Below are positions 1,236-27,494 of a DNA stretch of 64,000 nt, piece by piece. Both the position numbers and the translations under genes were made by a program. The notes under the pieces are model-generated. The model was not told where the DNA came from. It was given only the letters and a program-made list of their open reading frames with translations, and made no database searches. Source of the stretch: Diphasiastrum complanatum (taxonomy: Eukaryota > Streptophyta > Lycopodiopsida > Lycopodiales > Lycopodiaceae); contig CM055107.1 in assembly GCA_029204225.1 (NCBI GenBank), positions 7,890,472 through 7,954,471 on the forward strand, in the 5' to 3' direction. Within the stretch, counting starts at the first letter, position 1. The number at the start of each line of letters is the position of its first letter.

Positions 1236-2611
1236 TTTTAGCTAGATTCGAGCTTTGGTTTTGAATTTGGTATGATTATAAATACAAGCTTCTTAGATTT
1301 TGGTCTTTGGTCACTAGGGACAGTCCTGCTTTGATAATCTGGCTTTTGTTATCATCAGTGTGGCCTTTTCTTTGTAGTCGACATTTTTCTTTCCTTCAAG
1401 CAGTGGCTCAAGTGTCCACGTTTCATTCTGCCTCATCGACTCGATCTCCTCCGACATTGCTTGCTTCTAAAATTCACCTTATGGACTCTGGATAGGTTCT
1501 TGATATGTCGCCGGCTCCTCAGCGTAGCCATTAGAAGAGGTCTCATTATCAAAAAGACCCTTTAAGAAATGCCATGTAGGATAAAGAAAAAAATCAAAAT
1601 AAAAAAATAATAATATTGTTTATTTGCTTGCCCCCAACACTCCTGAGGATCTCCAACTCCCAATGATCTAACTATAGTGTCTATTGTCACAGTTAAGAAC
1701 TCTAAACTGTTCATAGTCTAACTTGTCTAAATTCAAAAATATTTTCCCTCCATTGGTTACGAAGAGGGCAATCTTCTCACTGGATCTAGAATATGGCCGC
1801 CATCCCCAAATTCAAATTAGGAAAAAAAGTAAAATGTATAAATATGCATTCCCTCCAGTAGAATAAAAATTTGAGTGCCTTCTCCAAATATGAATGCCAT
1901 CTCCACATTGGAATGAAAATTTGAGCGCCATCTCCAAATTTGAATCAGACAGAAAAGCAAAATCAATGGATTGATGGTACAGAGTATATAATATAATAAA
2001 AGATAAGTACTTTGTTTTGTTTTAAAAAATTTGTTCTTAGTACTTTGATGCGTTTAATTACTTTCTTGTTTTTTCTGATGACAACATTGTATTATCTACA
2101 TTTGGATATCCCTACTGATTTGGCACCTTTACAGAGAAGGGGAGGCAAAGGAATTCCAATCTTTGCTGAGGATCGAATAGGGAAGAGGAGGCAAAGGAAT
2201 TCAAATATCTGCTAAAGATCATTCTCGTTATAGGGTAGAAGGAAAGAACAACTTGGATTTGTGGACAAATGGAACATTATATTCTCAAGATCCCAGCACT
2301 CTGACTCATCCCACATTCTCGTCAATAACTAATCTAGTTATATGGATATGCAATGGGCATACTGGATTACTAGGATACTGTGAGAGATTGAAGAATCATG
2401 GAAATTAGTTCTATATGATGAAAATTCACATTTTAGAATGTAAGTTGATACGGATATCCTCTTATTGTCAGAATAGAGATTGTCTTCTCCAAAAGACCTT
2501 AGAGGAAAACGAACAACTTAAAAGAAATAATGAATAATTACACCAATATAACAATCGATATCAAATACAAACTAAAGCAAATGCAATCAATCTTACAATC
2601 TATTCGAATTG
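1236..2611. other. Non-coding stretch with a small degenerate tandem repeat
   Basis: No convincing gene. Between about 1,840 and 1,945 a unit reading roughly GAATGCCATCTCCAAATTTG recurs three times with variation. A phrase at 1,547 (CAAAAAGACCCTTTAAGAA) recurs at 17,551, which suggests a minor dispersed repeat. Confidence 0.4.
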
Positions 2612-4690
2612 AAAAGTTACAATTACTGAAGGATGTGGAATTCTAAGAAGAAGGCTAGGAATAAGAAGCGAAAGCAACAAAGTTGCAAGGATATTTAAAC
2701 TCTTTCAAAAAGGATGTTATCGAAATAGAAGGATTCATGCATTCAAGTAAGCATGTTCTGATTTTTGTAACTTTATCAATGACATATGGATTTATTTCAG
2801 CTACGGTGATATTTTGCCAACTATCTGTTTTTTTGCAGATCTGCATTAGTAGCTCCTCGGAATATTAAGGACAATGCTTCACTTGGAATATCGTTGGGCT
2901 CAATATTGACAGGCAAATCCACTGAGTGTATCATTATGAACAATAGGAGTTCCAATGTAAAATGCAAATTAACAGAGTCTTTGATGGTGGACAATCAAAA
3001 AAATTTAGATAAGACTATAGTTCAAGGTGCTTCTGATTTTGTAGGTATTAGCAGGGAAGCATATGCAACAATATTTAAACTTATTAGAGAAGCTTTTAAG
3101 TAAGTTCAAATTAGAAAAGTACTAATCCCAAGGTCATATCACTTGAAGAAAGAGAAGGATACATTAAACATAGGTATGCATAAGATTATCGGTAACCCAT
3201 TTCATATTGAGGAGGTGTATGAAACTGATGGAAGTTCAATATCTTGTAGTTCATCAAACAACTTATTTGTTGATATAAATTACTTGCTAAGATACATCGT
3301 CACATTCTATGATATAACCTTTGAAAAGGTGAATGGCAAAATAATCATGGTACTTAAGCTAAATGAGTTAGAAATTGTAAAAGGGTAGAAGATGGAGAGT
3401 GTTAGTATAGCTCTCATGAATGGTGCACTATCACAAACAGTGGAACAAGGAGATTTCAGATTTAGTGTCCAGTCCGAGAATGATATATGGTGGTTGGCAG
3501 CGTTTCAAATAATTTTTCTCTTTATTACATTATTTTCAATGGATAATATAAATTCATATTAAGCTAAGTTTGAATTATTGTTTGGATAGGTATTGAAGGA
3601 GGATCATGATATATTATCATGGATATTCTCTAGGACATCTTACCCTAGGATCATCAAGGACCATATGGATGGAGGATTTCTCAATGTTCCACAAGTTGGA
3701 GACTTCAATGTTGAATGGCACTTAGCAAGTTATTTGAAAACATTGAAATGCATGTATAATGTCTCTCACGATGCTACATCCAAACACCCTTGTTTATACT
3801 ACATGAAAATGGCAAAAGATGTTACTAGGAGTACATGAATTACTAGAGAATATGCAGATCCAAACTGGAAGCATGTGCTGCCCATTCCCTTGAAAATTGT
3901 GCATGTTTGCACTCTTCATGTAGAAGTTAGATTAATAGAAAAGCTCATTTATCTTCATATAGTTTTTGCTTGAAATACTAAGCCAACATCATCCTCGAAG
4001 GAAGCTATCTCGAGATTAGAAGATGTTTTATCGAAAGCAAGACTTCATAAGGGACGTGTCAAAATACAGAAAGATGAAAAGCTTTCAGAAAAGACAAGAA
4101 ATATGCTTACTAAACCAAGCATAGGAGGAGCAAAAGCACGTCAATTCCTATCAAAACATACTGGTAAGGCTTCAAAATTTAACACTCAGTCTGGATGGAT
4201 ATCATTGCTGCCACTCAAGGTTTCGAGAAGAGCGGCAAAACTAGATTACTAAAAGTTGATGTATGGAGAAAGCTTGATAGTATGATTGAAATTTTAAGAA
4301 AAGATAAATTTTCTGATATTGACAAGAAAGCTGTACAAAATACTTGTGTCGAGTTTGTTGGTACAGTATCAAAAGCATGGGGAGAAGATCACATCACTCA
4401 TTACATGGTTAGTATAAATGCTTCGAGATGATTTTAATACTCCTTATATATTTTGATCCAAGCATAAGACTGACATTATGATTTTGACATGTGCAACACA
4501 TAATAAGAGATCATACAACATTTTTTGCAAACACATGGAAGCCTGAGTGTCTAGTCATCACAAGGGATGGAGAAGTCACATTGGCAAGCACGGGCAGCAT
4601 TTCATCAACATGGAGGAACCAATGAAAAATGAAACTACATTTATCAATTATTTCAATGGTTCTACCGTAGAGTTCAGATTTGACAAATAA
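2612..4690 (+). pseudogene. Decayed spliced gene of an unrecognised conserved family
   Basis: A coherent protein can be followed through this region, but it is broken. One reading frame runs from 2,612 to a GTAAGC donor near 2,745, passes an intron ending TTTTTTGCAG at about 2,838, and resumes in phase. After an in-frame TAA near 3,101 the same frame continues from about 3,104 and holds until about 3,510. The expected donor after that exon reads AT instead of GT. The next exon opens at about 3,591 and contains WHLASYLKTLKCMYN and later IPLKIVHVCTLHVE. Stops sit where tryptophan seems expected (3,838 and 3,973, both TGA; about 4,532, TAG). A frameshift lies near 4,190. A last exon includes GMEKSHWQARAAFHQHGG. 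The family may be a transposase-like or domesticated gene; I recall no name for it. The pattern of G-to-A stops suggests cytosine-methylation decay. Confidence is high that it was once coding and low for any function. Confidence 0.6.
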
Positions 4691-5745
4691 CAAAATCCAT
4701 AGAATATATCAAGTTTAGAAAAGCATGCAAGTTCACGCATGAAGAGAAAAATTAGAATATTGCTGAATAACAGATTACATTCTTCTTGAAACTGTGCCTT
4801 TTCTACAAATGATTTTAATATAACAAAGACATTCAGTAATCATTGTCATCAAATTATGACAAGTTCAGAAAAGCAAGAGAGAAGAGCATCATAATCAAAT
4901 GATATGTACTCAATGTAAATGTATTAATTGTATCATAACATAAAACAAAGTGTTCACTCTTCATCATCAATTTTTGTATCTCCTTCTATGCCGATGAAAG
5001 AATCCCGAACCACTTCAGTATCAAGGGTGTCAATAAGGAAGTGACTAATATCTTTAAAGGATGATGGAACTGAGGATGAGGCCATTTGAGGATCAGAAGC
5101 GATAGCTTTTTCATCATCCGAGATCTAAACTAGCAGGAAAAGTATAAAACCAGTCTAGTATTTAAGAAAACGACATTTTCTTTTACAGATAGGACACATC
5201 ATAGTGTATCTAAATTGTTCAAACAATCTAGTAAACATTCTGTCTAGTCTTTGCTTGAACATCGGGAAGAAATGAACAAGACCAGTAAAATGCATGAATG
5301 AGAGAGGACCTATGGAGATAACATGTATACTAGCTATATCCCTGAATCTAACATAGTATTTGTAAATACTGCAGAACTAGGTTGCACAGTCTTGCAAACA
5401 TGTAGATATGGGCGAAATAGTGTGTGAAAGTAGTCTAAGTTTTTAGTCATTCCAAGATCAGTAAGAAATACACTTAGGGTGCTCTCACGGCTAGATCCCG
5501 AGGACAACACCATGGCTCTCAGGTAGATATCGCTTCTGTGCGTGGGGTAAGCAAACAGGAAAAAAGAGATTGTAAGAACGCACACAGGAGTGATATGTAC
5601 GAAAACTGTAGTTGGGATATCGCATTAGTGTGTAGACAAAAGACTAGCAACAATAGATACTATAAATAGTGCGCAGAAAAGCAATTTGCCATGAAAATTG
5701 AGAAAAAAAAGTAAAAAATTAATCGGGTTGCATGTCTTTTATAGG
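4691..5745. other. Intergenic sequence, nothing recognised
   Basis: No ORF with recognisable motifs, no repeat ends and no RNA gene seen. A minus-strand frame at 5,334-5,585 has no recognisable features. Confidence 0.4.
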
Positions 5746-5749
5746 CAAT

Positions 5750-5944
5750 TTTCACACGTGTGGGTCAATGGTCAACCAAACACATGTTGCCTCCTAATGG
5801 TTCGTACAACTACACACGTGTGATCTGACTACTGGACACGTGTCACGAGTTCATCAAAAAATGTGACACGTGTCGCCTCCCTAATGGTCCATACGACTAC
5901 ACACGTGTGATATGACTACAGGGCATGTGTCACGAGGTCATTGG
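5750..5944. promoter_or_regulatory. CACGTG-rich tandem array, left half
   Basis: About two copies of an 85-86 bp unit (GCCTCC recurs at 5,789 and 5,875). Each has CACGTG or CATGTG palindromes in ACACGTGT context, at about 5,755, 5,816, 5,838, 5,866 and 5,903. CACGTG is the plant G-box bound by bZIP and bHLH factors (established knowledge). The array continues after the copia insertion at 10,306, so before insertion it lay directly upstream of the histone H3-like ORF. A regulatory role is inferred; a plain tandem repeat with a palindromic unit is the alternative. Confidence 0.55.
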
Positions 5945-6553
5945 TGTCAGAAATCGAGAGGTTAGTGAGCAGAATCTTGAGCAGGTTCGTATAGGATCGG
6001 AAACGCCACAAACAACAATAGAGTATTCAAATTGAATGATTTAGACAAATGCACAATGAAATGATACTGTAGTAGGACTAAAAATTTGCACTCTGATTAA
6101 TATCAAACAGTGAGTACATGCTTGAAGTGATAACTTTAGCTTACAGTCATTGAGAGTGATAACTTTGGTTGTAGAAACTCGAATAATCAGAAGAAGTAAT
6201 CTGATGAGATTCTAGGATTGATATCCTACAAAATATCTACAACTACCTTTTGTTGCAGTTATTACAATTGCCTCATTATAGTTAATGCATGTACAAAGTG
6301 GACAGACTATCAACGCGAAGTCGTTGGGTCGGCGACAGTATCAAAATTTACAAGTATCAAAAAATGTACAAAGATTTGAAAATACTGACTCGAAAAATAT
6401 AGAATTTTTCGAGTCGATCCGATATAAAAAATTCCTAGAAAAGATTTGATTCTGAATTTTTCAATCCTCTGTTCATAATTCGAGCTTTCTGTTTTTGGTT
6501 TTTCATGATGCTCATTATTGAATGGATTTGAGACTGAGCATCGAAATCCAACA
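5945..6553 (-). repeat. LTR of the 5.9-10.3 kb copia element (3' LTR)
   Basis: 609 bp. On the element's strand it starts TGTTGGATTTCGATGC and ends TGACA. It aligns end to end with 9,691-10,300. The purine-rich run GGAAGAG precedes it on the minus strand. Confidence 0.92.
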
Positions 6554-6559
6554 CTCTTC

Positions 6560-6767
6560 CTTAATTTGGATCTTGAAAACTTTTGATTTTTAGATTCAAC
6601 ATGTCGTTGAATCTGAGGTGGTGCTCCTTTGATAGAGCCTTTGTGAAGTAATCTCCTGCCATTGATTCTGTCCTACAGTAGACTAAGGATATATCTTTGC
6701 TTTGTACTTTCTCTCTCAAATAGTGATATCTGATTTTGATATGCTTGCTTCGAGAATGAAATCTTGG

Positions 6768-6865
<98 letters not shown>

Positions 6866-9560
6866 ATGGTGCTTAAGTTGTCACAAAAGATGGTTGTTGG
6901 ATGTGATTGTGCAAGGTTGATTTCTGCTAGTAGGTGCCTCAACCAAATTGTTTCCTTTGTAACATTTGTGTCAGCAATGTACTCTAATTCAGTTGATGAT
7001 AATGCTACTGAGGTCTGCTTTCGGCTGTTCTAGGAGATCGGTTCTTGATTGTATAGGAATACCAATTCATAAGTAGACCTTCTAGAATCGATATCTCTTG
7101 CCCAATCTGCATCTGTGTATCCTTCAAGTACGTTGGTAGGTTGGTTGTCTCCATAACGTATGCTAAGATGTTTGGTTGCCTGAATGTACTTCATGACCTT
7201 TGTGAGCACTTTCCAATGAGTTAGACCTGGATTCGATAGAAACTGGCTGAGTGAACTGATTGAATATGCAATGTCACGGGTCGAGTGCAGATCATTGCAT
7301 ACATTAGTGAGCCGATGATGGAGTGAAATAGATATTGTTTCATCTCCTCCTAATCTGCCTCAATTTGAGGATATTGTTCCTTTGACAACTTCAATCCAAA
7401 GTCAAGTGAAAAGAGACTTGGTTTGTAGTTGGCCATTCCATACTTTTTCAGCACATTTGTGAGATATCGCTGTTGGTTGATGAAAATCGGACGACTAGAT
7501 CAAATTCAGAAAATTTTGATTCCGAGACAGTAGTGGGCTTTTGGACCCATATCAGTCATTTTGTACTCCTTGGCCAGCATGCATTTCGTTTCCTTCATCA
7601 GATCCAGATCGTTACTAAATAATAGTGTATCATCTACATAGAGAGTGACGATGATGAAGAAATTTGATACAGAGTTGAAGTAGACATTCGAGTGTGCTGA
7701 GTTTGGAATGAAACCATTCTAATAAGGAATGCATTTATTTTTTGGAACTAGGCCCTAAGTGACTATTTCAGTCCATAGAGTGCCTTGTAAATTTTGCACA
7801 CAAGGTGTTGTTTTCCTCTCAACTCATATTCTTCTGGTTGTGACATAAATATTTCTTCTTCAATGGTCCCATTGAGCAAAGCGATCTGGACATCCATTTG
7901 ATGGACTTCGAGATCTACTGCAGCTGCAAAGGAGAGTAGCAAATAGAACAAAGCATGCTTGAGTATTGGGTTGAAGGTTTCAGAATAATCCAGATCTAGA
8001 ATCTGGGAATAGCCTTTGGCTGCCAAAGCATATTAGATGATTCAGAAGTTGAGGTATGACGAGCTTGACTGTTGGAAGAATAACAATGGCTGAGTTTGTA
8101 GAGATCTCTACTTCTTCTCCCAAAAGCTAGAATTTTCCAAGTTTTGTTAAGGATAGTGCAACCGATTGTATCGAATTTAACCCTTCGATCTGAATCAATG
8201 ATTCTGCTAACTGAGAGTAGATTCTTGGTCAGATTTGAGATGTGGAGAACATTGGGAAAGAAATGAGTAGGAATTTTACCCTTAAAACACATATTTGATA
8301 CAAGATTCAAATTTCTTAGTTCTTTCAACATGCCAATCAAATCTCAAAAAAGCTCTGCCCTGCGGCCTTATGATCTTTCCAGATTCAATTAAGAATTTGA
8401 GAGTGGCAAAAAGTAGTTATTAGTTTCTTGTTGACAATAACCTTGACTTCACCTTTCTGAAATTTGACTCTGACTATTTCTTTACCTTGAATTGAATGTG
8501 ATGAGTTGTCTCCAAGTTGCACAACTCGAGTGGGTGAAAGATTTATAATCTTTGAACCAGACTTGATGGTGAGTCATGTGTTGAGTTGCTCCAGAATCGA
8601 GATACCAGGAATCGATATCCTATTGTTTTCCGACCTTGGTCATAAAGGCTGCTTCATCTTCCTCATGTTGTTGTATCAAAAAACTAGTTGAGGCTGAATT
8701 TGCTTGTTGTTGGAAGTGCTTCTTCTTCTCATTCTTGAATTTTAAAGTTCTGTAGTCCTTGATCTCAAGTCCAATTCTCTTGCAATATCTGCAGAAAAGC
8801 TTCTGCTTTGGTTGGAAAGATGAAGAGTTCGAATTCGATCCTGAGTCTAAATTCAACCCAGAGCTAAAATTTGAGACTTAGTCAAAATTTGATCATGACT
8901 GCATATTGCTCTCTTTTTTTTGGATCTAAACTTCTGATTTTTGGAATACAGAGCATGAGGATCCGACTGTGTACCTAAGGAGGTTGCAGATCTTCTGGCC
9001 TCCTCTTGTTGAAGTAATAAAATCACTCTTGAAAGGGTGATCTTCTCTTGGATCAAAATTTCTAGGACCCAGTTCTCATAGGCCTCATGAAGACTCGATA
9101 ATAGAGTTATAACAACATCAGTATCTTCAATGACTGAGCCAGTTGCAGTCATTTGCTCCATAAAATTTTGGAAAGTGTTGATGTGGATCGAAACATTTGT
9201 TGCTTCAGACATTCTCAAGGTGAAGAATTTTTTCCTCAAATGCAGTTTGGAGGAGATGTCCTTGATATCATAGAGTGTTGCTAGGATGTCCCATGCATGC
9301 TTAGTAGTCTTAACAACTCGTATGTGACTGATTTGATTGTCTTTGATGTTGAGGTGATCATGACAAAAGCCTTGTCATCTTTCAGTCTCCATTTGGTGAT
9401 AGTGGCTACATGACCTCCAAGTTTAACTTATGTGCCATCAACAATGTCCCACAGTTCCTTGGCTAGTAGTATGACCTTCATTTTGAATTTTCAAAGATGG
9501 TAGTTTCTTCTATCGAGTCTATCAATTAGAGAAGAATTAAAAGACGAATCCATTCTGGTT
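6560..9560 (-). pseudogene. Degenerate gag-pol of the copia element
   Basis: Read right to left. Gag of the UBN2 type lies at 9,239-8,853, followed by a zinc knuckle near 8,790. The knuckle keeps its first two cysteines (CRYC) but the H and last C positions read L and Y. The protease motif DSGA(TQHMT) is at about 8,587-8,607. A gag-pre-integrase segment (NLTKNLLSVS) is at about 8,250. The integrase catalytic core is absent. RT then resumes with FNPILKHALF and the conserved VHQMDVQIALLNG at about 7,890. Downstream RT and RNase H can be followed with several stops to the C-terminal TKALS region at about 6,640. A (GA)n tract lies inside the RNase H frame. The element cannot move on its own. Confidence 0.88.
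6771..6863. repeat. (GA)n microsatellite within the RNase H frame
   Basis: About 46 uninterrupted GA units. On the minus strand the RNase H reading frame enters after CDNLSTIAL and leaves before the segment containing SKQAYQN. The tract therefore expanded inside former coding sequence. Confidence 0.97.
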
Positions 9561-9678
9561 GAGCAAGATCATCGGTAGAAACAATTCGAGATACTGTTGG
9601 CTATGCGCTTGCTAGGACGCGTCTTGATATAAACAAGACTTGATAATCCGCAGTAAAATACAAATTACTGCACTGTCC

Positions 9679-9690
9679 GCTCTGATACCA
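9679..9690 (-). other. Primer-binding site (tRNA-iMet type)
   Basis: The plus strand reads GCTCTGATACCA, so the minus strand reads TGGTATCAGAGC. This is the usual complement of the initiator tRNA-Met 3' end in plant copia elements, directly adjoining the LTR at 9,691. Confidence 0.92.
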
Positions 9691-10300
9691 TGTCGAAAAT
9701 CAAGAGGTTAGTCAGCGGAAGCTCGAATAGGTTCATGTAGGATCGGAAACACCACAATAAATAGTAGAATATTCAAATTGAATGATTCGGACAAATGCAC
9801 AATGAAGCTATATAGTAGTAGGACCAAAAATTTGCACTCTGATTAATATCAAATAGTGAGTACAATGCTTGAAGCGATAACTGCAGCTTACAATCACTGA
9901 GAGTGATAACTCTGGCTGCAAAAACTCAAATAATCAAAAGAAGTTTCTAATGAAGATTCTAGGATTGACATCCTACAAAATATCTACAACTACCTTTTGT
10001 TGCAGGTATTACAACCGCCTCATTATAGTAAATGCTTGTACAAAGTGGGCGGATTGTCAATGCAAAGTCGTTGGGTCGGATTTTAGATCATCGACAATAT
10101 CAAAATTTACAAGTATCAAAAAATGCACAAAGACTCAAAAAATACTGACTCAAAAAATATAAACTTTTTGAATCGATCTGATATAGAAGAATTCTCAAAA
10201 AAATTTGATCCTAAATTTTTCGATCCTCTACTCAATGAGCCCTAGTTTTTCAAGATGCCCATTAAGAAATGGATTTGAGACTGAGCATCAAATTCCAACA
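9691..10300 (-). repeat. LTR of the 5.9-10.3 kb copia element (5' LTR)
   Basis: 610 bp, TG...CA ends, homologous to 5,945-6,553. The right end abuts the ATTGG duplication at 10,301. Confidence 0.92.
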
Positions 10301-10305
10301 ATTGG

Positions 10306-10485
10306 TAGGAAACATGCCATGTGACATCTCCCTATTGCACCATACGATAGCACATGTGTGACCTGACATCCGAACACATGTCACGCAATCATTGCATGGA
10401 TAAGGCGACACATGGCAGAATCTCATAAACTGATAGTTTGCACGTGCGACAAGACGTGTGTTCGCACGTGCGAACCGTTTGATAA
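10306..10485. promoter_or_regulatory. CACGTG/CATGTG tandem array, right half, upstream of the H3-like ORF
   Basis: Continuation of the array at 5,750-5,944 after the copia element. Two more diverged units carry CATGTG, ACACATGT and two GCACGTGC palindromes at about 10,440 and 10,465. It ends about 310 bp upstream of the proposed ATG at 10,798. As a cluster of E-box/G-box type sites it could be promoter sequence. No clear TATA box was fixed. Confidence 0.5.
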
Positions 10486-10797
10486 AAGTCCTCGACCCCG
10501 AGACACTTTTCTTCAATTTTTTTTTGCTCCATCTTTCCGCATATTGCTCTTGTGCGACGGTAGGTTATGTGCACTTCTATCTATTATAATTCATATGCAC
10601 AAATTTGATATACTGTACCTCCGCATATCGCTATGGTAGGACCCTCTTCTATTTGTGTTTTACTTGTTATACTCGTTGCGCATAGAAGCGATATAACTTA
10701 CTGTCCATACATATTGCTTCTCTACAACCATCATTACACCCTTTTTCATCATATTTCATTTCTCATGCACAAGTCCAATAGCCCTCTGACTACCAAT

Positions 10798-11972
10798 ATG
10801 GATAGGAGAAAGCAGACAAAGAGAGATTTTTTCTCTACTGATACTTCCTCAGAGCCTATTGTTGCCATTAATCCACCCAGACAAACTAGAAGGCGCAACT
10901 GTAGTAAGTGGCTATATGATATTCGCAAATACCAGAAATCCACCAAACTCCTAATTTCCAAAGCACCATTTTACCATGTTATCCGCCAGATTACCAAGGA
11001 AGATCTCGGTAGTATAGTTAGGTTTACACCCGGGGCACTTCAGTGCCTTCAAAAGGCTGCTAAGGATTATCATAGCCTCTTTTCTGAGGACTCATTTTTG
11101 CTCGTCATACATGCCAAGCGAGTTATGATAATGCCTAAAGATTTTCAGCTACTATACAAGATGAGGGATAGATACTCAAAATTACATATGGGTGAGCCAG
11201 CTGCTCCCAGACCCGCCGATCCATTAGATAGGACATACCTCCCTACCAAGAGGCCCATGAAGCAGCCAACCCCCAAGAGAACCCCGAAGAAAGTAAGGAG
11301 GGTCGTTAATCCAGAGTCTCCTTTTGTAGATAATATAGATACTGCTACATTTGATTTGGTTGTAAACATAGCTACAACCATTTTGGATAATTCAGTTATT
11401 TTTGTAGATTCTTCTCATCCACCTCCTCCTCTTCCTTCTCATCCACCTCCTCCTCATGCAATTTTTTATACATATATAGATTTTGATGATTATCTTAAAT
11501 TTGAGAGTGACATGTATGATGTTGTAGATAGAATTGGAGTTCCATTTTGTTTTAGATTAGAGGAACTTGATTTCAGTATAAATTATAGGATTATTGATTG
11601 TTTGGATCTAGAAAATAAATGGGCTTTTATCAGTGATGCTGTGATAGAGTCTGGGGACACACTCTTGCAATTTGACATTGCAAGAGATTCATCGAGTGAA
11701 ATTTTGGTGCTCAACAATTCTTTCCTTCAGGCAATTAAGGAGAAGAATGACAATTTGTCACAATGTCTATTTAGTGGATATACACCAGTTACAAAATATC
11801 TGTTTAGTGGATGCACAGCAGTTACAAAATATCTGCTGGTGTCTTATCACTGCAAGTAAGTCAATTTAAATGTTTTTTGTTATTTATAGCTTTATTATTG
11901 GCATTATCATTTGAGGTATTTCTCAGAATTGTAGCTAATGGACTCTCTATTTTATTTTGCAGTGAGCACTAG
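10798..11972 (+). CDS. Histone H3-like fold protein with long novel C-terminal extension
   Basis: The start chosen is ATG 10,798 because the protein then begins MDRRKQTKR, matching the H3 N-terminus MARTKQTAR; the frame is also open upstream to 10,633. Residues about 39-126 read as an H3 histone fold. They contain DIRKYQKSTKLLI (alpha-N), a loop with one extra residue before VRF, LQCLQKAAKDY (alpha-2) and IHAKRVMIMPKDFQL. The lysine matching H3K56 is kept; no K9 or K27 ARKS motif is present. Then come a basic Pro/Lys-rich linker, two PPPP runs around residue 260, and about 90 acidic residues of unknown fold ending in a duplicated LFSGYTPVTKY. The frame hits TAA at 11,857, but a GTAAG donor overlaps it at 11,856. 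Splicing to TTTTGCAG at 11,962 replaces the last lysine by four residues and TAG at 11,972. A normal H3 is about 136 aa; this is about 353. It could be a divergent H3 or CENH3-like gene, a virus- or transposon-captured histone, or a recent pseudogene. Confidence 0.7.
11767..11832 (+). repeat. 33-bp in-frame tandem duplication in the H3-like ORF
   Basis: Two adjacent 33-bp copies encode LFSGYTPVTKY and LFSGCTAVTKY-like 11-residue units near the C-terminus. The period keeps the frame open. Confidence 0.85.
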
Positions 11973-12367
11973 AGTTTAAACTTGATCTCTATCAGGAGAT
12001 CTATAGAGAATGTTATTAAACTTTTTTGTGTAAATATTGACTCGGTCCTACCGATTGTATGTAAATATATTCCATCAGAGACTCCCATGCAATTGAATGA
12101 GAGATCATTAGTCTGGAGGTAAATTATGTCCTTCTCATCAACATTTTGAAATCAACAATCTATTGTGTTCTTATCATTGTGTGGTTTTCCATTATTGATG
12201 TCTTGTGTGCTGAAATTTTTGTAGTCACCCTAGCAAAATGATTCATTCAGTTGTGGGTGGTACACTTTGTACAATGCAAAGTTGCTTTTTGAGCAAGATG
12301 TTGATATTTCAAAGGTAATTTATTTTGTTTATTATTGGTTTTGGAATTGTGATTCATTTTTCTATTC
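11973..12367. other. Possible 3' region of the H3-like ORF; no further gene
   Basis: AT-rich, no recognisable coding frame. It may hold the 3' UTR of the H3-like transcript, since the second exon starts at 11,963. No distinct polyadenylation signal could be assigned. Confidence 0.4.
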
Positions 12368-12835
12368 GAAATGCTTCTTTTGTAGAAAGAAGGGGCATTA
12401 TGCGTCTGAATGCTACAAGAGAATAAGAGCACAAGTGGAGAAGGACAAACAAGGAAACCTTGCAAAGGAGGAGGAGGAGGATGAAGTAGATGTATTCTTG
12501 ATGGCATCTACATCCTCACCAACAAGCAATAGCAATTCAAGAGACAATTGGTGGATCGACAATGGGGCTAGCTCCCACATGTCTTGTGAAAGGACTTTTT
12601 CTCAACTTTACACTCATTCAATGATGCTAAAAAGTTTGTCTTTACTGCAAATGATGAAGAGTGTAGGATAGATGGTGTTGGCACCATCTCTTTGTGTCTA
12701 GAATCCTCAAAATGCATGGATCTAGAAAATGTCCTTTATGTACCATCAATAACCAAGAATATGCTTAGTGTTGGTCTACTCTTAGAAAGTGGTTTGGATG
12801 TCCACTTTAAGCATGGGGTTTGCTTCATCGGATTC
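12368..12835 (+). pseudogene. Ty1/copia fragment: zinc knuckle, protease, pre-integrase
   Basis: The plus strand encodes a CCHC zinc knuckle (CFFCRKKGHYASEC), an acidic linker and the copia protease motif WWIDNGASSHMSCE. After a frameshift near 12,630 it continues with NVLYVPSITKNMLSVG, typical of the pre-integrase segment, to about 12,835. Upstream gag and downstream integrase are absent, so this is a captured or truncated piece. No LTR adjoins it. Confidence 0.85.
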
Positions 12836-14614
<1,779 letters not shown>

Positions 14615-26939: not shown

Positions 26940-27494
26940 ATGTGGAACATCATTTTCATATTTGGGTCATATGTACGTGATCAAGCCAGTGAGCACTTTC
27001 CTAACGCGAGATTGGATTTATTTTCTTTGACTAGCATTGATGTCCCTTTGAATATTGTTGTCACATTAATGCCTTATGTAGGACCTCGATATAATTGGGG
27101 TGATTGGCATGCTCTATGTCATCACCAATGGAGAATGCAGGTTTACATCTTGAATGCCAATGCTTGTTCTTTGGAAAAGTGTCGTGTGCAAGGAGAGAAT
27201 GTTTTGAAATCACATCGTATGTACATTGATGGGCGTCCAGAAAAACATGGCAATATTGTTGCATATATAAATAATTCCATTGGTCACCCTTCATTAACTA
27301 ATTGTGATTTTGAGGAATGTGCCAATGGAAAGGAAGAATACTTTTCTAGAAACTCAAAAGGTACATACGTAATGGTATGTGCGATAAGGCCCATTAAATG
27401 TGGTGAAGAGCTATTCATCAAATATAGCTTCAATCCTCCTCTTCCAAGATGTGTACAAAAGGCTTTGAGCCAAACTCAAGCATGTACCTTGTAA
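26940..27494 (+). CDS. SET-domain segment within the CACTA gene
   Basis: A 184-codon frame whose C-terminal half is a SET (lysine methyltransferase) domain. It has RPEKHGNIVAYINNS, which fits the cofactor-binding RxxNHS motif with His replaced by Asn. It is followed by NCDFEE and then VMVCAIRPIKCGEELFIKY, which fits the GEEL-x-x-Y motif. There is no post-SET cysteine cluster. The upstream part has no recognised domain, and frames before 26,940 are broken, so it looks like a captured 3' portion of a plant SET gene. It lies between recognisable TNP2 exons on the same strand. NHS-to-NNS and the lost upstream exons make activity doubtful. SET identity is firm; whether it was ever spliced into the transposase is unknown. 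Confidence 0.7.
   Translation: MWNIIFIFGSYVRDQASEHFPNARLDLFSLTSIDVPLNIVVTLMPYVGPRYNWGDWHALCHHQWRMQVYILNANACSLEKCRVQGENVLKSHRMYIDGRPEKHGNIVAYINNSIGHPSLTNCDFEECANGKEEYFSRNSKGTYVMVCAIRPIKCGEELFIKYSFNPPLPRCVQKALSQTQACTL

Follow-up and report, generated by a model that had tools for sequence, protein, structure and literature searches.

Histone H3-like frame of the window

The stretch of 64,000 nucleotides that was analysed (the window) contains on its forward strand an open frame (10798..11859) which runs from an ATG to a TAA and encodes 353 residues. Its first part is a histone fold. Pfam Histone was recognised over residues 17-122 of the window protein (E 7.9e-21, 75 bits vs a cut-off of 26.4), and copy B, another copy of the same gene, reached 93 bits. 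The top match in the PDB was a histone H3 chain over residues 30-124 (E 4e-18). The H3 fold that had been proposed in an initial annotation of this DNA, for which a missing H3 match in profile searches would have been fatal, was thus clearly detected with both resources. By eye, the RRKQT motif near the N-terminus resembles the RTKQT of H3. The fold scores over the curated cut-off with H3 as the top match, as does that of a core histone H3; core H3 ends a few residues past the fold, whereas the window frame reaches residue 353 and intact copies end at 328-337.

Downstream of the fold, the window protein continues for about 220 residues with a basic linker, proline runs and an acidic C-terminal domain that belong to no recognised family. 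Beyond residue 126 the best Pfam match had an E-value of only 0.08 and the best PDB profile match one of only 0.22, in agreement with the description of this region as novel in the initial annotation. The structure prediction that had been recommended there as a check was run on the window protein alone; the model showed a mean pLDDT of 33 and a fold search with it returned nothing at E <= 0.001. No NCBIfam match was obtained for the window protein or for genes A and E (see below). The features identified around the frame are listed in Table 1.

Table 1. Features of the transposon copy and of the H3-fusion gene in the window
Feature	Position	Strand	Details
Transposon copy as preserved, without right end, including the LTR insertion 5945-10300	1529..12367	+	Matches to other copies span 1529 to 12366-12371; the other copies extend further
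Left terminal inverted repeat (TIR), 35 bp	1529..1563	+	Differs from the 35-bp TIR at 3 positions, chance expectation 0 matches; inverse copy ends copies A and B
Gene A remnant, possible transposase, no known family	2448..4428	+	ORFs with stops and frame changes; pN/pS 0.47 vs copy D
Gene B remnant, no known family	5019..5939	-	ORFs, part of a minus-strand gene; exon 1 pN/pS 0.47 vs copy A
LTR retrotransposon, copia-like by eye, inside the transposon	5945..10300	-	ATTGG duplication at 5940-5944 and 10301-10305; TG...CA ends
H3-fusion gene, exon 1	10798..11855	+	Fold (residues 33-126, approximately), then a basic linker containing proline runs and an acidic C-terminal domain; unspliced frame stops at TAA 11857-11859
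Intron 1 (inferred)	11856..11962	+	GTAAGT...TTGCAG; donor present in 10 of the 11 copies in the alignment
Putative exon 2	11963..12118	+	From 11-copy alignment; window copy has a stop at 11970-11972; codon-position support weak
Putative exon 3	12225..12314	+	Splice-like signals by eye; next exon past the truncation point

Termini, copy number and gene order

The initial annotation had not recognised that the sequence is a repeat. A DNA search with the window sequence returned 47 dispersed matches in the genome, and protein searches with the window protein and with copy B as queries scored 115 and 122 copies, from 9,103 and 9,674 first-look candidates, respectively. At least 122 H3-like copies were therefore scored, 26 of them free of stops and 96 bearing stops (copy B query); identical scores make it likely that some of the 26 come from duplicate contigs. 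The copies have sequence in common far outside the H3 ORF.

This shared sequence is bounded by TIRs. Copies A and B terminate on the right in the inverted form of the 35-bp TIR, with unrelated DNA outside. In the whole genome (1.74 Gb, probably that of a plant), 1,987 matches to the TIR were obtained at <=2 mismatches, while the reversed-pattern control gave 0. The listed matches falling within 7 kb of each of the 122 H3 matches were recorded, using 150 matches of gene A, 137 of gene E and 73 right ends (80 matches minus 5 duplicates and 2 that fell short of the terminus). Among the matches listed, order and strand near the H3 copies were consistent in 16 of 16 cases for gene A, in 23 of 23 for gene E and in 11 of 11 for the right terminus. 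As only best-scoring matches were included, the majority of H3 matches lacked a listed partner. The order is left end, gene A (+), gene B (-), H3 fusion (+), gene E (-), right end.

The spacing is preserved as well. From the start of gene E to the right end, 831-859 bp were measured in 21 of 21 cases among the matches listed, and from the start of the H3 frame to the right end 3.3-3.8 kb. Between the left end and the H3 start lie 5.3 kb in a C19 copy and 4.1 kb in a C24 copy; the left end was absent from the guessed position in copy C19:24036267 and was not found within 3 kb upstream in copy L023. Five TIR pairs were identified with spacings of 8.1, 9.4, 9.5, 11.0 and 11.8 kb, three of which enclose a listed gene E. 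One of the five pairs is flanked by a target-site duplication of 3 bp (TCA on both sides) and the other four by none.

Dispersed units with a constant gene order between terminal inverted repeats are a mark of TIR DNA transposons. The window frame is almost certainly the first exon of a gene belonging to a high-copy transposon of this type, which has four genes and a length of about 9-11 kb. The suggestion of a gene carried by a mobile element was thus right, with TIRs at both ends, dispersed copies and a fixed gene order. The viral origin offered alongside it fared differently. A multi-gene, two-strand unit might be an integrated DNA virus, a reading that draws on the several genes without known family on both strands and on the occurrence of histones in some DNA viruses. 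The introns, the short TIRs and the thousands of TIR ends are instead what a transposon would show, and none of 8 pattern matches in viral contigs encoded a relative, in a search that reaches close relatives only. An endogenous virus is thus extremely improbable.

Genes A, B and E

Gene A is present in at least 150 genome copies. When fragments of genes A, B and E were compared with other copies, pN/pS ranged from 0.32 to 0.80; the ratio was below 1 in 26 of 26 comparisons, with p <= 0.05 in 22. No Pfam family was recognised in the fragments, which stem from genes not assembled in full, so that a domain may have been missed; in particular, they gave no match to the Pfam transposase domains of hAT, Mutator, CACTA, PIF/Harbinger and Tc1/mariner. 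In neighbouring sequence, a CACTA transposase and a SET domain were picked up by the same scan. PDB profile searches of gene A and of gene E gave no match for either. If gene A is the transposase, it may define a superfamily outside the coverage of Pfam.

Several other elements were observed around the copies. A SET-domain frame is located at 26940-27494 (+) of the window (E 4.9e-08), and in the flank of another copy (L035, 7643-9755, -) a SET look-alike (E 6e-07) adjoins a CACTA-type Transposase_21 frame (E 7.6e-33); a CACTA family with a SET-domain gene may be present in this genome. In the region of L038, at 893-2070 of copy D, a relative of the gene E region was detected in inverse orientation with 64-66% identity, which points to an older lineage that is sister to the element. 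Directly after the truncated transposon, the window contains a fragment of a copia-type gag/protease gene (12380-12829; zinc knuckle by eye). On its two strands, a long CT/GA simple repeat at 13256-13582 can be read as serine/leucine and arginine/glutamate frames, which are non-genic.

Exons beyond the open frame

By placing the end of the gene at 11972, the initial annotation implied an intron at 11856-11962. The corresponding donor, GTAAG or GTAAT, was found at the end of exon 1 in all aligned copies except L011 (10 of 11). The stop codon in exon 2 at 11970-11972 is common to 5 of the 11 aligned copies, the window copy among them. For exon 3, the first frame tried received no support from codon positions. 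Further splice-like signals occur downstream, and the protein of the family is hence probably longer than exon 1. From these sequence signals, it is probable that the H3-fusion gene of the family comprises exons beyond exon 1.

Decay of the window copy

The transposon copy of the window is interrupted by an LTR retrotransposon, and other copies of the transposon run through the insertion site uninterrupted. The LTR pieces at 5945-10300 are 85% and 90% identical, which indicates that the transposon insertion is old. On the branch leading to the window copy, 48 changes were counted (39 nonsynonymous and 9 synonymous), giving a pN/pS of 1.27 (p 0.79) with no sign of constraint; on 12 control branches the ratio was 0.46-1.17, the measure being noisy on decaying branches. 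A duplicate of the window copy at C16:8684439 is 98-99% identical to it. The identity extends across neighbouring LTR-element sequence (98.7% with this sequence included), and the duplicate therefore looks like the product of a segmental duplication.

These data bear on the proposal that the sequence could be a domesticated gene, with the window copy and its C16:8684439 duplicate having taken over a host function. It has in its favour that exon 1 is open in both. The window copy is nevertheless truncated, with its right part lost, interrupted by the LTR element, stopped in exon 2 and without constraint on its own branch, while the second copy appears to have arisen by segmental duplication. 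Domestication is therefore unsupported and was considered highly unlikely.

Stop codons are frequent among the best DNA matches. In the nucleotide alignment, 19 of these matches each carry at least two in-frame stops; up to two spurious stops also arise in this alignment for intact copies, and the protein search independently showed stops in several of those 19 copies. Orthologues full of stops had been named at the outset as an observation that would refute the proposal. Among these 19 matches this appears to be the case, but other copies are intact and constrained (see below). The stop-filled relatives and the intact, constrained copies would both be explained if the window carries a decaying copy of a functional transposon gene. 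Among 18 decayed relatives, 26 of the 73 stops correspond to CAG to TAG or CGA to TGA changes. Such changes are expected where methylated cytosines are lost at CHG and CG sites, and they suggest that copies of the element have been silenced.

Selection between intact copies

Selection within the mobile lineage was assessed with copies A-D, which were selected for having no listed stop and which form six pairs that are not independent. Picking open frames removes stops and does not itself generate a synonymous excess. Over the fold, pN/pS was 0.16-0.31 in the six pairs, with p at most 6e-4 in each. The C-terminal region (residues 222-353) gave 0.21-0.83, with p < 0.05 in five of the six pairs, and the linker 0.50-0.68, with p < 0.05 in one pair only. 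This demonstrates that purifying selection acts on the H3 fold between intact copies.

The constraint also weighs on the idea of a mere passenger, i.e. a captured host H3 without any role that was multiplied by its carrier and is now decaying, as in Dothideomycete fungi. Such a fate has a published fungal precedent (PMC6710886), and it would account for the stops in 96 of 122 copies and in all 19 aligned best DNA matches. It does not predict a fold constrained in six of six intact-copy pairs, a C-terminal domain constrained in five of six, or 26 stop-free copies out of 122, and is accordingly quite improbable.

Source of the histone fold

The fold of the window copy is identical to the canonical H3 of the host at 42 of 85 aligned residues. 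Across the element copies, identity amounts to 42-48 of 85 residues with host H3, 37-46 of 86 with Arabidopsis CENH3 and 36-40 of 86 with rice CENH3. In a tree of 85-87 columns, which has long branches, the elements form a group of their own, apart from H3 and CENH3. Among the matches listed in a genome search with Pfam Histone, 13 scored about 164-165 bits (one was inspected and is canonical H3), and the others 82.8-109.5 bits. Several in the latter range are H3-like copies already listed, and one at 83 bits is an exon of canonical H3. The match at 109.5 bits, L054 (C11:4817357-4817716), is a diverged H3-like sequence in an open frame of 260 codons. LIPRAPF, EDSFL and a W just ahead of the alpha-N helix are common to L054 and the elements; L054 may be part of a different lineage of elements.

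Canonical H3 and CENH3 of plants share with the element protein the histone fold with its IHxKRVxIMPKDxQL stretch and a short RRKQT start. The element protein differs in that, at about half of the positions in the fold, its residue is not that of host H3, in that it lacks most of the H3 tail and in that more than 200 residues come after its fold. A fold derived from the centromeric variant CENH3 might guide the element, or the protein it encodes, to centromeric chromatin. The elements recall plant CENH3 in LIPRAPF, the EDY and EDSFL stretches, KDFQL and an additional residue ahead of RF. Identity to host H3 is at least as high as to CENH3, though, and the tree separates the elements from both; a CENH3 origin was considered rather unlikely.

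Proposed role of the H3-fusion protein

The best overall explanation, to which we assign a probability of about 0.6, is that the frame is the H3-fusion exon of a high-copy transposon in which a captured H3 is kept by selection and has a helper role. According to this model, an ancestral element would have acquired a histone H3 coding sequence. The captured H3 would then have diverged and gained its long C-terminal extension, the protein being retained by selection during the multiplication of the element. The H3-fusion protein is predicted to enter the nucleus, to pair via its fold with H4 or with itself, and to sit as a helper on the DNA or chromatin of the element. The likeliest task of such a helper would be escape from silencing, with targeting or transposome assembly as alternatives.

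A histone fold with an added domain, both selected in an element that acts within silenced chromatin, points to a helper working on nucleosomes. A chromatin-helper role of some kind has roughly even odds on the sequence evidence, and anti-silencing in particular is put forward tentatively, as less likely than not. Few host proteins are as conserved as histones, which play a central part in transposon silencing; the present data suggest that the element may deal with host chromatin through a histone of its own. The boldest version, that of an undescribed DNA transposon superfamily whose own H3 variant would form on element DNA a private nucleosome evading or overriding host silencing, is speculative and rather unlikely. 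What was found is a transposon family of more than 100 confirmed and probably thousands of copies with a diverged H3 under selection. Such a family would make the action of transposons on nucleosomes directly testable, and would show H3 variants arising and diversifying within mobile elements.

Comparison with known systems

Within the open-access literature of PMC, no plant transposon-encoded histone and no transposon H3 that is both fused and under selection was found. A hAT transposon with a captured H3 was considered as the identity of the present element. The hallmarks of hAT are a hAT transposase and an 8-bp duplication; no hAT match was obtained in the fragments searched and the 8-bp duplication is absent from all five TIR pairs, which gives no support for this identity.

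The best precedent is nonetheless provided by the hAT DNA transposons with captured histone H3 of the fungi Pyrenophora tritici-repentis and Pseudocercospora fijiensis (PMC6710886, PMC3538342). The captured H3 copies in fungi are reported to be mostly truncated or RIP-inactivated (PMC6710886). The fungal elements and the present one are alike in being TIR DNA transposons with an H3-like sequence and a high copy number. They differ in that the element described here combines a strongly diverged fold with a long new domain and purifying selection between intact copies, and has no recognised transposase.

With regard to the role, the closest parallel may be VANC, which is not known as a histone-fold protein. 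VANC is the anti-silencing protein of the VANDAL elements of Arabidopsis (PMC5735166, PMC10398659). Anti-silencing, which is only conjectured for the H3-fusion protein, has been demonstrated for VANC, and VANDAL resembles the present element as a plant DNA transposon with accessory genes, the analogy possibly extending to the role of the encoded protein.
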